From: Pseudomonas mendocina
GTDB lineage: Bacteria; Pseudomonadota; Gammaproteobacteria; Pseudomonadales; Pseudomonadaceae
Direction of reading: 5' to 3'
Length of the DNA stretch: 64,000 bases
Assembly: GCF_003008615.1 (NCBI RefSeq)
Contig: NZ_CP027657.1
Location: 310,001 to 374,000 of the forward strand
Of this stretch, positions 42,003-48,174 are shown in pieces. The notes under the pieces were generated by a model that worked only from the letters and a program-made list of their open reading frames with translations, was not told where the DNA came from and searched no databases. The position numbers were made by a program, and so were the translations under genes. Positions within the stretch are counted from its first letter, which is position 1. Each line of letters opens with the position of its first letter.

Positions 42003-43037
42003 ATGGAAAACCTCGGCTATACCTCGGTTCCCGCCCTGCTCAAATACCTGCGCCAGGCCGAACAGCTCGGCCTGGACATCGACCGCGCCCTGGCCGCCGC
42101 CGGTATCGCCGCGCAGGACCTGGCCGACAATGGCAAACGCATGCCCAGCGAGGTGCACGAGCGCCTGCTGGCACATCTGATGGAGGTTTCCGGCGACCCC
42201 CTGTTCGGCCTGCATGCGGCGCGTTTCGTGCAGCCCGGCTCGTGGAGCGTGCTTGGCTACATCGCCATGAACTGCGCCACCCTCGGCGAAGCCATGGGCC
42301 GCATCGTGCCTTACGAGAAACTGGTGGGCGACATGGGCACCAGTCGCATCGAGGCGGCCGAGGATCACGTGCGGCTGATCTGGAGCTGCCGCCATCAGGC
42401 ACCGGACGTGCGCCGCCATATGGTCGAGAACGTGCTCGCCTCCTGGCTGCTGTACGCCCGCTGGATCGCCGACTCCGAACATTCGCCGCGCGAGGTCTGG
42501 TTCGAGCACGCGCAGCCGAGCGCCACCGACCTGGCCGAATACCAGCAGCTGTTCGGCTGTCCGGTGCTGTTCGAACAACCCTGCAACGCCCTGCTGGTGC
42601 CGCTGGATTACCTCGGCGTACCGCTGCGCCAGGCCGACGCCAACCTGCTGCGCACGCTGGAAGAACATGCCCTGACCCTGATGGCCGGGCTGGATGACGA
42701 CGAGCCGCTGCCGCGCCGGGTCAAGAATGCCCTGCGCCTGCTGCTCAAGGACGGCCTGCCGCGCAAAGAACGGGTAGCGGAGAAGTTCGACATGACCGTG
42801 CGCACTCTGCAGCGTCATCTGCAGCAGGCCGGCACCAGCTACCAGCAGATCCTCGACGAGCTGCGCCAGGAGCTGGCCGAGCACTACCTGCTGCGCAGCG
42901 ATCTGGCGATCCAGGACATCGCCAGCTACCTGGGCTTCACCGAATCACGTTCGTTCCATCGTAGTTTCAAGAGCTGGACCGGGCAAACGCCGGGCGAGTT
43001 TCGCGAGAGCCGGCGCCGGGACAATCCGCTGGGTTAG
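42003..43037 (+). CDS. AraC-family transcriptional regulator
   Basis: A 344-residue regulator. N-terminal arabinose-binding-type domain (about 15-195) of the ArgR/OruR-like class (PSEVHERLLAHLMEVSGDPLFGLHAARFVQPG). C-terminal AraC helix-turn-helix pair (KFDMTVRTLQRHLQQAGTSYQ and IASYLGFTESRSFHRSFKSWTG). ATG at 42,003 is preferred since the upstream frame lacks coding character. It is divergent from the FAD oxidase, so it probably controls the oxidase/dehydrogenase/kinase cluster. Its stop overlaps the DoxX stop by four bases (converging). Confidence 0.9.
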   Translation: MENLGYTSVPALLKYLRQAEQLGLDIDRALAAAGIAAQDLADNGKRMPSEVHERLLAHLMEVSGDPLFGLHAARFVQPGSWSVLGYIAMNCATLGEAMGRIVPYEKLVGDMGTSRIEAAEDHVRLIWSCRHQAPDVRRHMVENVLASWLLYARWIADSEHSPREVWFEHAQPSATDLAEYQQLFGCPVLFEQPCNALLVPLDYLGVPLRQADANLLRTLEEHALTLMAGLDDDEPLPRRVKNALRLLLKDGLPRKERVAEKFDMTVRTLQRHLQQAGTSYQQILDELRQELAEHYLLRSDLAIQDIASYLGFTESRSFHRSFKSWTGQTPGEFRESRRRDNPLG

Positions 43038-43633
43038 CGGGAAATTCGGAAACGCCGCGCCAGCCAGTAATCGATGCTCAACCAGCGCCCTGCCCCGCTG
43101 AAGAACAACGCCACCAGCATCACCAGATAGGTAGCGGCGAACTCGATGCCGTTGTTCAACACCACGAACTTGCCGCTACTAGTCAGCCAATCGTAATTGC
43201 CGTGCTCACGCAGAATCGCCCGCGCCCGTTCGAGCTTCTCCGCCGCTGCCAGTACGCGTTCGCTGGCGAAGGGGGCGGACGAGTCGGCAATTGCCTGCCA
43301 GCCATAGGGCCAGTGCACGGTGACGATGGCCACCAGCATGGTGATGATCAGCGGGATGCTGATCCAGCGCACGGCAAAACCGAACAGTAGCAGGATGGCG
43401 CCACCGGCCTCGGTCAGCGCTGCCGCCCAGGCCAGCAGCTCGGGAAATGGCAGGCCCAGGCCCCAATCCGGATTGCCGAACCAGGCAGCGGTGGCGTCGA
43501 TATCGGCCAGCTTGTGCGTGCCGGCCATCCAGAACACCGGCACCAGATACAGACGCAGCAACAGCGGGCCGAGAAAATCCAGGCGCCGGGAAGCCTCCAG
43601 CGCGTCCTGGAAGCGATTGAGCAAAGCGATCAT
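43034..43633 (-). CDS. DoxX-family membrane protein (HvfX-like)
   Basis: A 199-residue, four-helix membrane protein of the DoxX family (LLLRLYLVPVFWMAGTHKL, VRWISIPLIITMLVAI). In copper-binding RiPP clusters a DoxX-like protein often follows HvfC. I recall the name HvfX for this role, but I am not certain. It starts 5 bases after the hvfC stop and is the last gene of the leftward hvf operon. Possible roles: anchoring, redox coupling or metal handling at the membrane. Confidence 0.82.
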   Translation of the reverse strand: MIALLNRFQDALEASRRLDFLGPLLLRLYLVPVFWMAGTHKLADIDATAAWFGNPDWGLGLPFPELLAWAAALTEAGGAILLLFGFAVRWISIPLIITMLVAIVTVHWPYGWQAIADSSAPFASERVLAAAEKLERARAILREHGNYDWLTSSGKFVVLNNGIEFAATYLVMLVALFFSGAGRWLSIDYWLARRFRISR

Positions 43634-43638
43634 GGCGG

Positions 43639-44349
43639 TCAGTCCTCGGGATACGGAAACCAGATATCGCGCGCCTGCCAGTCATCCAGCAGCACGCGGG
43701 CGTTGTCGAAATAGGCGCGATCCGCGGCCAAGCCATGGGCCGTGGCCAACCCCAGCTGCGCTTGCACAGGCGTCTCGGCGGCCTGCAGGCGCAGCGCCAA
43801 CTGGTAGGCGAACGGCGACAGTTGCATGAAGCGCACCTGATCCTGGCGATCACGCCAGACCAGCAGGCAGGTCGGCTCGGCAGGCGGCTGCGTCGGGCAG
43901 TGATCGGCACCGATCATCTGCACCGGCCACTGGTAGGCCAAAGGCCAGGCCAGCGGCGACCAGCCGCGCTCGGGCAACTGCGCATCGCTGACATCCAGCG
44001 CCAGCTCGACCCACTCGTAATGCGCCAGCTCCAGCATGAACGCAGGGTCGTCAGGCTCGGCGCGATAGCCCTGCTGCAACCAGGCAATGAACTCCTGGCT
44101 GATCTCGAGAAAGTACGGCGTGCTCGCCCGATGCTCAGCGAAGAATGCGCGCAGCAACCGCTGCCAGCGCTCCGCCCCGAGAATCCCGCGCAGCACCGGA
44201 AAGGCGCCGCCGACCAGGCTGGCGACGTTATTGAAAAACAGCTCCTCGTAGATCGCCATGCGCTCGCCGCTGATGCCCGGTAACAGCGCCTGCGCTTCGG
44301 GCTGGCGAATACGCGCGGCGAAATCGCGCTGCAATTGCACGCCGCTCAT
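43639..44349 (-). CDS. hvfC: HvfC-type RiPP maturation partner (DUF2063)
   Basis: A 236-residue protein with an N-terminal DUF2063 domain (1-95: LQRDFAARIRQPEA and ERMAIYEELFFNNVASLVGGAFPVL) and a C-terminal substrate-binding-like region. HvfC/BufC proteins form a complex with the HvfB maturase and bind the precursor leader. Its ATG overlaps the hvfB stop by four bases. No signal peptide; cytoplasmic. The assignment is based on family and operon position. Confidence 0.88.
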   Translation of the reverse strand: MSGVQLQRDFAARIRQPEAQALLPGISGERMAIYEELFFNNVASLVGGAFPVLRGILGAERWQRLLRAFFAEHRASTPYFLEISQEFIAWLQQGYRAEPDDPAFMLELAHYEWVELALDVSDAQLPERGWSPLAWPLAYQWPVQMIGADHCPTQPPAEPTCLLVWRDRQDQVRFMQLSPFAYQLALRLQAAETPVQAQLGLATAHGLAADRAYFDNARVLLDDWQARDIWFPYPED

Positions 44350-45188
44350 GTGCCGTACCTGCTCAGCGGTTGCGCAGCCTGTTGCAGGCTGCGGATATGC
44401 GCCAGCTCGGCATACAGCTCGGCCAGCGGCGGGAAGTTGAAGTCGCGTTCCAGCAGCGTCGGGCGTACGCCATGCTGCGCGTAGGCGCTACTCAGCAGTG
44501 CCCACACCGGGTCGATCACCGGCGCACCGTGGGTGTCGATCTTCAGGTCTGCCGCCTGGTCGTAATGCCCGGCGACATGCAGATAGGCGATGCGCTCACT
44601 CGGCATCGCGGCGATATAGGTCTCGGCATCGAAACCGAAGTTCAGGCTGTTGACGTAGACGTTGTTGATGTCGAGCAGCAGTTGGCAGTCGGCACGTTCC
44701 AGCACAGCACAGACGAAACCTGCCTCGTCCAGCTCGCCGGGCAGGCGCGCATAGGCTGAGACGTTCTCAATGATCAGCGGCCGCTCCAGCACGTCCTGCA
44801 CGATGCGTACGCGCTCGACGATGCGCGCCACCGATTCCTCTGAAAACGGCAGCGGCATCAGGTCATACAGCTGGCCATCATCGGCGCAGGCCGACAGATG
44901 CTCGCTGTAGGCCAACACTCCGTGCTCGTTCAGAAAGCCCTTGATGGCGTGCAGCAACTCCAGATTCAGCGGCGCGAAGCCGCCAAGGTTGAGGGACAGA
45001 CCATGGCACAGCAACGGCCGGCGCTCGCTCAGGGCACGCAGTTGCTTGCCCAGCCGGCCACCGACACCGATCCAGTTCTCCGGCGCGACTTCGAGAAAGT
45101 CGGCGCCGCTGGCCTCATCACCGATCAGCTCGGCGAGCAGCCCGCGACGCAGACCGAGACCGGCGCCGGTGAGGTGTGCGAGGTGCAT
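44346..45188 (-). CDS. hvfB: HvfB-type MNIO RiPP maturase (DUF692)
   Basis: A 280-residue TIM-barrel enzyme of the multinuclear non-heme iron oxidase family (DUF692, MbnB-like). Key segments with metal ligands: LLCHGLSLNLGG, EHLSACADDG, IIENVSAY, LLLDINNVYVN, YLHVAGHYD, HGAPVIDPVW, LLERDFNFPP. These enzymes convert cysteines of the cognate peptide into copper-binding heterocycles. It lies 21 bases after the precursor gene and is coupled to hvfC. All expected His, Asp, Asn and Glu positions look intact. Confidence 0.9.
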   Translation of the reverse strand: MHLAHLTGAGLGLRRGLLAELIGDEASGADFLEVAPENWIGVGGRLGKQLRALSERRPLLCHGLSLNLGGFAPLNLELLHAIKGFLNEHGVLAYSEHLSACADDGQLYDLMPLPFSEESVARIVERVRIVQDVLERPLIIENVSAYARLPGELDEAGFVCAVLERADCQLLLDINNVYVNSLNFGFDAETYIAAMPSERIAYLHVAGHYDQAADLKIDTHGAPVIDPVWALLSSAYAQHGVRPTLLERDFNFPPLAELYAELAHIRSLQQAAQPLSRYGT

Positions 45189-45209
45189 GATCCGTCCTCC
45201 CCTGTGCCC

Positions 45210-45485
45210 TTACTCGCTCTTCTCGCCGCCGCACTTGCCTTCGGCATCGGTCTTCTTGTCGGCGCCGCAGGAGCCTTCCTTGTCCGCCTTCATATCGCCT
45301 TTCATTTCACCGCCACATTTGCCTTCACCGCAGGAACCTTCCTGCGCCTTCTCACCGGCAGCCAGGCTGTAGCCGCTGCTCAGTTCCTGCGCGGCGAACG
45401 GGTTGCTCGCGGCATGCGCGGTGAAGGCAACAGTGCTCAGCAGCGCGGCGCCCAGGGTAGCGGTCAGGGTATTGAGTTGTTTCAT
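45210..45485 (-). CDS. hvfA: HvfA-type secreted copper-binding RiPP precursor
   Basis: A 91-residue precursor with a signal peptide (1-25, ending TAHA) and a Lys/Glu/Gly-rich mature part. It contains four EGxCG motifs: EGSCG 49-53, EGKCG 54-58, EGSCG 70-74, EGKCG 82-86 (Cys 52, 57, 73, 85). HvfA-type EGKCG peptides are modified at Cys by MNIO enzymes to copper-binding oxazolone/thioamide or thiooxazole groups. GGAGA lies 6 bases before the ATG. It is the first gene of the leftward hvfABC-doxX operon and is exported, presumably modified first in the cytoplasm. Confidence 0.92.
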   Translation of the reverse strand: MKQLNTLTATLGAALLSTVAFTAHAASNPFAAQELSSGYSLAAGEKAQEGSCGEGKCGGEMKGDMKADKEGSCGADKKTDAEGKCGGEKSE

Positions 45486-45758
45486 GGCATCTCTCCATCG
45501 GTTTCGAATACGGCGCCAGGTTGGCGCCCTCGCAGCAATGGACGAGGCAGGGATGCGGGCGTTACAGCGGGCGAAAAAAGTTTTCGTAGCCTGGATGAAA
45601 TCCGGGGGCGCTTTGCCCGCTACCAGTCGCGGCTACGACTGTATGGATGCAGGAGGTAGAGCGAAGCAGGATGCCAGAACCGAAAGCCCCTCCCACAGGC
45701 ACAGAAACATCCACCAAACCGTGGGAGGCGCTTCAGCGGCGAGGCTTTCGATAGCCAG

Positions 45759-45800
45759 TAGCCCGAACGGCCATCGCAAGCGGTGGATGACAAAAGCGTC
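45759..45800. repeat. Left 42-bp direct repeat flanking the AT-rich islet
   Basis: Begins TAGCCCGAACGGCCATCGCA and ends AAAAGCGTC. It matches the copy at 48,133-48,174 at 38 of 42 positions in the same orientation. It belongs to a family of intergenic repeats that continues with ATCCGCCCTACGCG. Confidence 0.8.
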
Positions 45801-45990: not shown

Positions 45991-46025
45991 TCCTGCTAAA
46001 GATCCTACTACGCAAGGAAATCACA

Positions 46026-47186
46026 TTGGCAATTCAAAAAACAATAAACCAGCATTATGTTCCCCAGTTTTTACTGGAGGGCCTTGACTCGACCGGAGCC
46101 AAAAAACCAAAAGTACATATTTTTGACTTAGAAAGGAACATTGTTCGCCAAAGCCAAGCAATTAAAGAGATTTTCTCTCAAAATTACTTCTATGACAAAA
46201 ACAATGAAATCGAGAACTTTTTATCATCAAACATCGAAGGCCCCGCATCAGAAATAATAAATAGAATAAGACATGGTGACTTCAACATACCAAACCAAGC
46301 CAGAACCACATTAATTAAGTTCATGTGTTGTCAAAATGCCAGAACCGTCGAAGGCAGAGAGGACGCTCTAAACTTCATCAACGCGCACTTCCATCAAATA
46401 GTTTCAAATTTAAACAGACTTAACAACTTAGGAATAAAAAATCCAGAAGACTTCAATATAAGACCATCAAACAAAGACTCGATGCGCCTTTTCAATGCAG
46501 CACAAGCCTTAAACGGGGTCAATGACTCGAAAGGAATGGAGGATCTTGAATTTCATTTCTTGATAAACAAAACCAATCAGGAATTTATTATTTCAGACCA
46601 TGCAATAGCCCGATACAACTGGCTCTATCGTGACCTTCATGATCCACGCATTGGGAGTATGCTAGCCAAAGGTGTTCAGCTGTTCCTTCCACTTTCAGAC
46701 AAGATTTGTCTTTGTGCGTATGACGCGAAAATTTATAAGTATGGAAATAAATCCTCTAATATTTCCGAATTGATTTTTGAGAGCGATGTCTCCTGGATGA
46801 ATCAGCTACAAGTGAGAAACGCTCACTCATTCATAGCTTTCAAGTCCATATCCATGGTTGGTATTTTAGAAAAAATGCGCGCAGAGTTTTATGGAAAAAA
46901 GATTTACGCTAGAAAAAGCGCTTACCTAGGACAAAAAAATATTGGAGAGGAAAGACTTAAGACGACGCACGTTGTGTATACCGAACAGGTAAAACTGAGA
47001 GACAAACCCACGTTCTTTAAAATTCTTAAAAAATCAAGAAACTCTGCCATCTGCTTCGAAGAGCGCGACCCCAATATATCTAAGAGCTTAATGATACTGA
47101 AAGAAAAGATACGGAAAGACAGAAACACCAATCAACCCTTAAAAAACCAAAGCACTCGAACGCAACAAAATTGCGCCGACAATTGA
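46026..47186 (+). CDS. DUF4238 family protein
   Basis: A 386-residue protein with the DUF4238 hallmark NQHYVPQFLLEGL (8-20) near the N-terminus and the internal EFIISDHAIARYNW segment. The C-terminus (about 330-386) is basic and probably disordered. It starts at TTG with AAGGA 7 bases upstream. Base composition is near 38% GC, unlike all neighbours, so it is horizontally acquired. It is co-oriented with the HEPN-like gene 31 bases downstream, and the two form a stand-alone unit opposite to the surrounding operon. DUF4238 has no agreed function; a nuclease or defence-linked role is a guess. Confidence 0.82.
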   Translation: MAIQKTINQHYVPQFLLEGLDSTGAKKPKVHIFDLERNIVRQSQAIKEIFSQNYFYDKNNEIENFLSSNIEGPASEIINRIRHGDFNIPNQARTTLIKFMCCQNARTVEGREDALNFINAHFHQIVSNLNRLNNLGIKNPEDFNIRPSNKDSMRLFNAAQALNGVNDSKGMEDLEFHFLINKTNQEFIISDHAIARYNWLYRDLHDPRIGSMLAKGVQLFLPLSDKICLCAYDAKIYKYGNKSSNISELIFESDVSWMNQLQVRNAHSFIAFKSISMVGILEKMRAEFYGKKIYARKSAYLGQKNIGEERLKTTHVVYTEQVKLRDKPTFFKILKKSRNSAICFEERDPNISKSLMILKEKIRKDRNTNQPLKNQSTRTQQNCADN

Positions 47187-47217
47187 AGTAATATTCTTAA
47201 CTGATGGGAGATTAGGT

Positions 47218-47988
47218 TTGAGTCAGAAAATAAGGATCTGGGAAACTAGCATCTCATTGTTAATTGCATATGAGATACTCGCCCTTGGATATAAGAAAGC
47301 TAAATCCATACGCACACCACTAAGGCTTGATGATGGAAATTTAGAGAAAGATACCACCCCGACATCCGATTATGCTAACTACCACCAGTCTTTTGCTTTG
47401 TTAATCTTAAATGCATCAATTATTGAAGGAACCATTAGAAGCATCCTCTCTGAAAGAATATCTAGCGACATTGACTATGAAATAGAAAAAGGAAAATCCT
47501 TCGGCCAAGAAAAGCCTTCTCGCGCCGAAGAGCTTTTGTATAAATTTCGAGAAGAAGTCGAACTCCAAGGCGGATGGGAAAAGCTCAAAAGCCAATACAA
47601 ACAATATTTAGAAATCAACCTAGACAAGATCACAAACGAAGAAACCAGAGAAGGTATAAACACACTTTTTGCCCTTAGAAACATTTTATCGCATGGAACA
47701 GCAATCATCCAGCCAAGCATAAAAATGGACGACGAACTCAAAAATGTGTACCCATTTAATTGGCAGACAAAAATCCAGAGAGCTAGCGTATATCTAAAAT
47801 CAAAATTCAGCCATGAAGGGATTTTTGAAAATCTAGCTGAATTCGAAGTTCCAGAGCATTTTATGGAAATCACCAAAACATATTTAAATGACCTAAAAAA
47901 GGCTGTAGGGGACATACCAGAGCGAGCGAAGAAAACCATTGAAATGGTAGATAGATATAGCTTCGGTTACATTAACTACTCCAGATAG
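47218..47988 (+). CDS. HEPN-like protein with Rx4H motif
   Basis: A 256-residue, mostly helical cytoplasmic protein. The segment ALRNILSHG contains Arg154 and His159 in Rx4H spacing, the catalytic signature of HEPN ribonucleases. An upstream helix (FALLILNASIIEGTIRSILSERI) resembles the first HEPN helix. The TTG start has GGGAG 7 bases upstream. AT-rich like its partner DUF4238 gene, and separated from it by only 31 bases. HEPN proteins are typical toxins or effectors of antiphage systems. Here no MNT-type antitoxin gene is adjacent, so the DUF4238 protein may be the partner. No named family recognised. Confidence 0.72.
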   Translation: MSQKIRIWETSISLLIAYEILALGYKKAKSIRTPLRLDDGNLEKDTTPTSDYANYHQSFALLILNASIIEGTIRSILSERISSDIDYEIEKGKSFGQEKPSRAEELLYKFREEVELQGGWEKLKSQYKQYLEINLDKITNEETREGINTLFALRNILSHGTAIIQPSIKMDDELKNVYPFNWQTKIQRASVYLKSKFSHEGIFENLAEFEVPEHFMEITKTYLNDLKKAVGDIPERAKKTIEMVDRYSFGYINYSR

Positions 47989-48010: not shown

Positions 48011-48066
48011 GGGTAGAGCACAGCGAAACCCGGGAGAAATTCGATGGGTTTCGCGTTGCTCTACCC
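48011..48066. repeat. Imperfect inverted repeat (GGGTAGAGCA type)
   Basis: GGGTAGAGCACAGCGAAACC C pairs with GGGTTTCGCGTTGCTCTACC C (19 of 21). Typical of pseudomonad intergenic repeats; it lies directly at the right edge of the AT-rich islet. Confidence 0.7.
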
Positions 48067-48132
48067 ATCATACGGTGCTGCTCTTGCAAGCGAAGTTTGC
48101 CGGAGGTTTCTTCGTTGCGAGGCACTACCAAT

Positions 48133-48174
48133 TAGCCCGAACAACCATCGCAAACGGTGGATGAAAAAAGCGTC
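48133..48174. repeat. Right 42-bp direct repeat flanking the AT-rich islet
   Basis: TAGCCCGAACAACCATCGCA ... AAAAAAGCGTC; differs from the left copy at four positions. The distance between copies (about 2.37 kb) equals the islet plus its edges. Confidence 0.8.

Follow-up and report, generated by a model that had tools for sequence, protein, structure and literature searches.

Does an AT-rich islet of two adjacent genes in the chromosome of Pseudomonas mendocina represent one dedicated defence system, or do two defence genes merely share the same spot? The islet lies within the window, the whole 64,000-nucleotide stretch of DNA that was analysed (contig NZ_CP027657.1, positions 310,001 to 374,000), and contains the following two genes and no other:

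46026..47186, + strand: gene of a DUF4238 protein, 386 amino acids (aa), TTG start; Pfam PF14022 at E 3.6e-32; AlphaFold2 model with pLDDT 91.3; 74 database proteins including its own
47218..47988, + strand: gene of a HEPN-type protein, 256 aa, TTG start; active-site residues invariant in 109/109 alignment rows; PF18735 at E 4.2e-4, under the cut-off; model with pLDDT 92

An earlier note on this DNA had proposed that the two genes form a recurrent pair and an antiphage module. As a fixed module, this pairing was not borne out. On balance, the islet is probably horizontally acquired defence cargo, consisting of two largely independent predicted defence genes that share one operon at a variable chromosomal spot.

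The HEPN family was searched in 298 and then in 398 same-genus genomes and was found in 5 and 6 genomes, respectively (the second set includes the first five), and among 321 class and 332 order genomes it was found in the window's own genome only. Additional loci were identified in genome contigs (7), viral contigs (1 and 3, one of them common to both) and plasmids (1), and the phages that were searched contained none. After merging, which included the union of G370 with L042 (equal profile score), 13 distinct HEPN loci were obtained: the window, the same-genus genome G091 (L009), L040-L048, L061 and L062. A DUF4238 gene is located beside the HEPN gene at two of the 13 loci, the window and G091, with the limit that the available sequence is short on one side at L040, L047, L061 and L062 and a neighbour could be missed there. 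DUF4238 genes were identified in 42 of 296 same-genus genomes (46 places, one or more of them interrupted by stop codons; 41 of the genomes exceed the cut-off), in 11 further class genomes out of 301 and at six viral loci, two of which are near-identical. An examination of about 1.5 kb or more on each side, unless the contig ends, revealed a HEPN gene at 2 out of 63 DUF4238 places, the same two as above. The two families therefore mostly live apart. A recurrent module would have the partner adjacent at most loci of at least one family, and neither family shows this; the neighbour check suggested by the earlier note does not support a recurrent pairing.

The two pairs also differ from each other. 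The order in G091 is reversed (HEPN followed by DUF4238, 514 bp apart), and its DUF4238 protein is 794 aa long compared with 386 aa in the window, shares 24% identity with it over 236 aa and displays a SEC-C match just under the cut-off. Genomes with the HEPN gene are not clearly richer in DUF4238 genes (2/5 vs 40/291, Fisher p 0.15, a figure which assumes that the three HEPN genomes without DUF4238 also belong to the DUF4238 draw). In both same-genus genomes found to contain both families (the window genome, G000, and G091) the genes are adjacent, which random placement would hardly produce and which the clustering of genes in defence islands may explain. The pairing was not found in the open-licence papers searched: full text yielded a single paper with both names, PMC9122126, whose passages deal with the two separately, and a wider search covered its five best matches.

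The second gene of the islet was assigned to the HEPN superfamily based on the following two elements:

47425..47439, + strand: codons E70 to R74, the Ex3R part of the predicted HEPN active site (motif according to PMC3710099); E70 and R74 invariant in 109/109 rows
47677..47694, + strand: codons R154 to H159, the RNxxxH (Rx4H) motif, here RNILSH; R154, N155 and H159 invariant in 109/109 rows

The family consists of 119 database proteins (clustered at 90%) of about 250 aa, of which 109 rows were aligned. The five residues are identical in every row while the mean column identity of the alignment is 45%, indicating that the conservation of the active site exceeds chance. The protein thus contains an Rx4-6H motif with a polar residue after the arginine, which bears out the earlier reading of Arg154 and His159 as a HEPN signature, and an Ex3[KR] motif with a conserved acidic residue in helix 2. 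In the confident predicted fold, E70 and R74 lie in helix 52-94 and the R154-H159 motif at the end of helix 141-158, positions that appear to agree with those described for HEPN ribonucleases. The protein falls under every Pfam and NCBIfam cut-off: PF18735 (HEPN_RiboL-PSP) reaches 20.7 bits against a cut-off of 28.4, so that membership in this family is not supported, and PF18737 (HEPN_MAE_28990) gives no match at E <= 10. Among the 109 family members, 26 display weak matches to PF18735 and one to PF18737 (E 0.0078). Two relatives are named MAE-28990/MAE-18760-like and most of the names given are hypothetical; the closest relative is P0007 (Alloalcanivorax profundimaris). Overall, the motif, the helix positions in the model and the weak profile matches support the HEPN assignment.

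The likeness to PF18735 and to the MAE_28990/MAE_18760-like family PF18737 is that of a shared superfamily with an Rx4H motif. The top structural match of the model is the toxin-antitoxin entry 7bxo (11% identity), whose chain F we take to be HepT, the toxin of the HEPN/MNT toxin-antitoxin system; the window protein is twice as long. No MNT nucleotidyltransferase partner was identified, as the neighbouring gene product matches DUF4238 only (Pfam, E <= 10). The abortive infection proteins AbiV, AbiJ and Abi_2 belong to the HEPN superfamily according to PMC3710099, where AbiV is described as lacking the canonical Rx4-6H motif; they are found in the same islands as relatives of the window protein but represent different families by sequence.

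The identity of the first gene, as named in the earlier note, is confirmed by a PF14022 match of 112.3 bits (curated cut-off 27) that covers residues 8-274 and profile positions 1-279 of 281. No other Pfam match was found at E <= 10, and a search with the confident predicted fold returned no match among solved structures (PDB). The conserved residues are H10, E63, R106, D191, N259 and Q262, and the closest relative is P0126 (Pontibacterium). A lone DUF4238 protein confers resistance to phage T7 (Rousset 2022, PMC9122126), and DUF4238 is listed among defence systems in PMC12629846, PMC10855318 and PMC11291487. The statement that DUF4238 has no agreed role consequently needs amending at the level of phenotype and stands at the molecular level, since the same paper calls the molecular function unknown. 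The window protein belongs to the same Pfam family as that single-gene system but shares its islet with a HEPN gene, and it is likened to the tested Escherichia coli protein by family only. DUF4238 is thus an experimentally supported defence family with a confident predicted fold, for which the search found no solved counterpart, and with the handful of conserved residues given above.

Several other DUF4238 loci were noted. A second DUF4238 gene in the same genome (L087 4186-5289, contig 1 near 5254200, 46% GC) is located among phage genes, downstream of a tail-completion gene and directly upstream of baseplate genes, as prophage cargo. A long form with frames of about 790-830 aa and a large C-terminal part is present at L009 (9816-12200), L103, L104, L105 and L106, and the HEPN gene adjoins it at L009 only. 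At L016 (1462-3241) a DUF2971 gene follows a DUF4238 gene at a distance of 26 bp, and these two may form a pair as well.

The genomic company of the HEPN relatives was also analysed. Within the available sequence, a recognised defence gene is located near the HEPN gene at 5 out of 12 other loci (Lamassu, Gabija, McrBC, E1-E2 and Abi genes among them), with neighbours scanned at all of these loci but L062. As the neighbours were chosen, ten of them by eye at four loci (L042, L043, L044 and L048), this value does not represent a rate. The Lamassu genes LmuA/LmuB adjoin the HEPN gene in P. cichorii (L042), where GajA/GajB of Gabija are present as well, and in P. khorasanensis (L044). McrBC and E1-E2 are found near the gene in P. 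graminis (L043), whereas a plasmid of P. aeruginosa (L048) carries PD-T4-5 and PDC-S32. The G091 island contains AbiV together with a PD-(D/E)XK protein. In the viral contig L047 the HEPN gene lies downstream of tail and endolysin genes, and an integrase is found near it at L061. The HEPN gene is divergent to the Lamassu system at both loci (L042 8101-9989, L044 8389-9983), which makes this a second repeated neighbour. L061 (290-1278) and L062 (1-989) are related integrase-bearing elements in which the first base of the HEPN gene is also the final base of an 82-aa gene, which possibly encodes a small partner. Attention thus shifts from the pair to the HEPN family, the less-described part of the islet. 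Its predicted RNase active site is invariant, and its members occur close to Lamassu, Gabija, E1-E2 and Abi genes as well as in phage-like contigs and on one plasmid, which makes it a candidate single-gene defence system.

The composition and the boundaries of the islet bear on its origin:

45752..45800, + strand: left copy of a 49-nt imperfect direct repeat flanking the islet (right copy 86% identical)
46014..46019, + strand: likely ribosome-binding site of the DUF4238 gene (AAGGAA)
47205..47210, + strand: likely ribosome-binding site of the HEPN gene (TGGGAG), within the intergenic gap
48011..48066, no strand: inverted repeat with 21-nt arms and a 14-nt spacer, directly after the HEPN gene, from the repeat search; absent from the terminator scan list
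48126..48174, + strand: right copy of the flanking direct repeat, from the repeat search

The two genes are 38.2% (DUF4238) and 37.7% (HEPN) GC, compared with 61.3% in the window and 63.5-65.8% in the two 5-kb flanks, and no other stretch of 1,960 bp in the window, sampled in steps of 100, is as AT-rich; the islet lies about five standard deviations under the mean GC of such stretches. The genes are separated by 31 bp (47187-47217), with the ribosome-binding sites about 7 bases upstream of each TTG start, and the closest genes to the left and right are encoded on the opposite (-) strand; coordinates, composition and spacing agree with the earlier description. A scan for promoters and terminators found no excess over shuffled sequences. 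The spot is variable: in the related genome G012, whose flanks are 91% identical, it holds a DDE transposase and a 96-aa frame that has no Pfam match, and in G008 the repeat occurs once, at the right flank, and the left side differs. A genome search with the left repeat copy found four places including itself, the right copy not among them. We infer insertion or exchange through the flanking repeats.

In the proposed explanation, a low-GC donor would have supplied the islet and its two genes would be co-transcribed. The HEPN protein would be a dormant ribonuclease that is triggered by phage infection to cleave RNA and halt the cell, and the DUF4238 protein likely blocks phage alone; their independence is suggested because the families occur mostly apart. 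Of the antiphage module claimed earlier, it is this defence cargo that appears to be supported, by the defence genes near some HEPN relatives and the T7 resistance published for a different member of the DUF4238 family, and the recurrent pair that is not.

A dedicated system, in which DUF4238 acts as a sensor of infection, or is modified during it, and thereby activates the HEPN ribonuclease, with other triggers in lone relatives, is rather unlikely. The 31-bp same-strand spacing, the matched composition, the absence of other islet genes and the adjacency in both G000 and G091 argue for it, but DUF4238 is missing from the available stretch at 11 of the 13 HEPN loci and HEPN from 61 of the 63 DUF4238 places, the two pairs differ in order and in their DUF4238 proteins, the HEPN genomes show no clear DUF4238 enrichment, and island clustering can account for the adjacency. 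A bolder variant is unlikely: the HEPN family would be a plug-in, phage-triggered predicted ribonuclease that borrows DUF4238 as its sensor rather than as an effector, making the islet one two-part immune system.

Alternatively, the islet might be cargo that does not serve defence; stress-regulated RNA decay would be one example, and the genes might also lack a function. The ten chosen neighbours at L040, L041, L045, L046, L047 and L061 include no clear defence system (helicase matches at L041, GajB-type, and L040, DinG-type, a helix-turn-helix match at L041 and no match among the seven remaining proteins), which slightly weakens the defence reading and slightly raises this alternative. The contents of the same spot in G012 indicate that such cargo can decay, and the lack of a promoter or terminator excess also counts in favour of this alternative. 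However, neither frame is disrupted and each has a ribosome-binding site, the HEPN family retains its active-site residues, and known defence genes or phage-like contigs form the setting of some relatives, leaving this explanation quite unlikely. An antitoxin-first order and close spacing, as in the window, are usual in toxin-antitoxin pairs. That DUF4238 serves as antitoxin to a constitutively toxic HEPN protein, in the way that MntA does for HepT, is nevertheless very improbable despite this arrangement and the top structural match, given that most of the HEPN relatives found lack DUF4238, that the order is reversed in G091, that a DUF4238 protein can act in defence by itself (PMC9122126) and that DUF4238 has no nucleotidyltransferase match in Pfam.

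The left neighbours of the islet encode DoxX, a DUF2063 protein, an MbnB/TglH/ChrH protein and a small Cys-rich protein, and the right neighbours a zf-HC2 zinc-finger protein, an ECF-type sigma factor and KAS III. The four left genes form an operon (window 43034-45485), which resembles a bufferin-type operon for ribosomally synthesized and post-translationally modified peptides.
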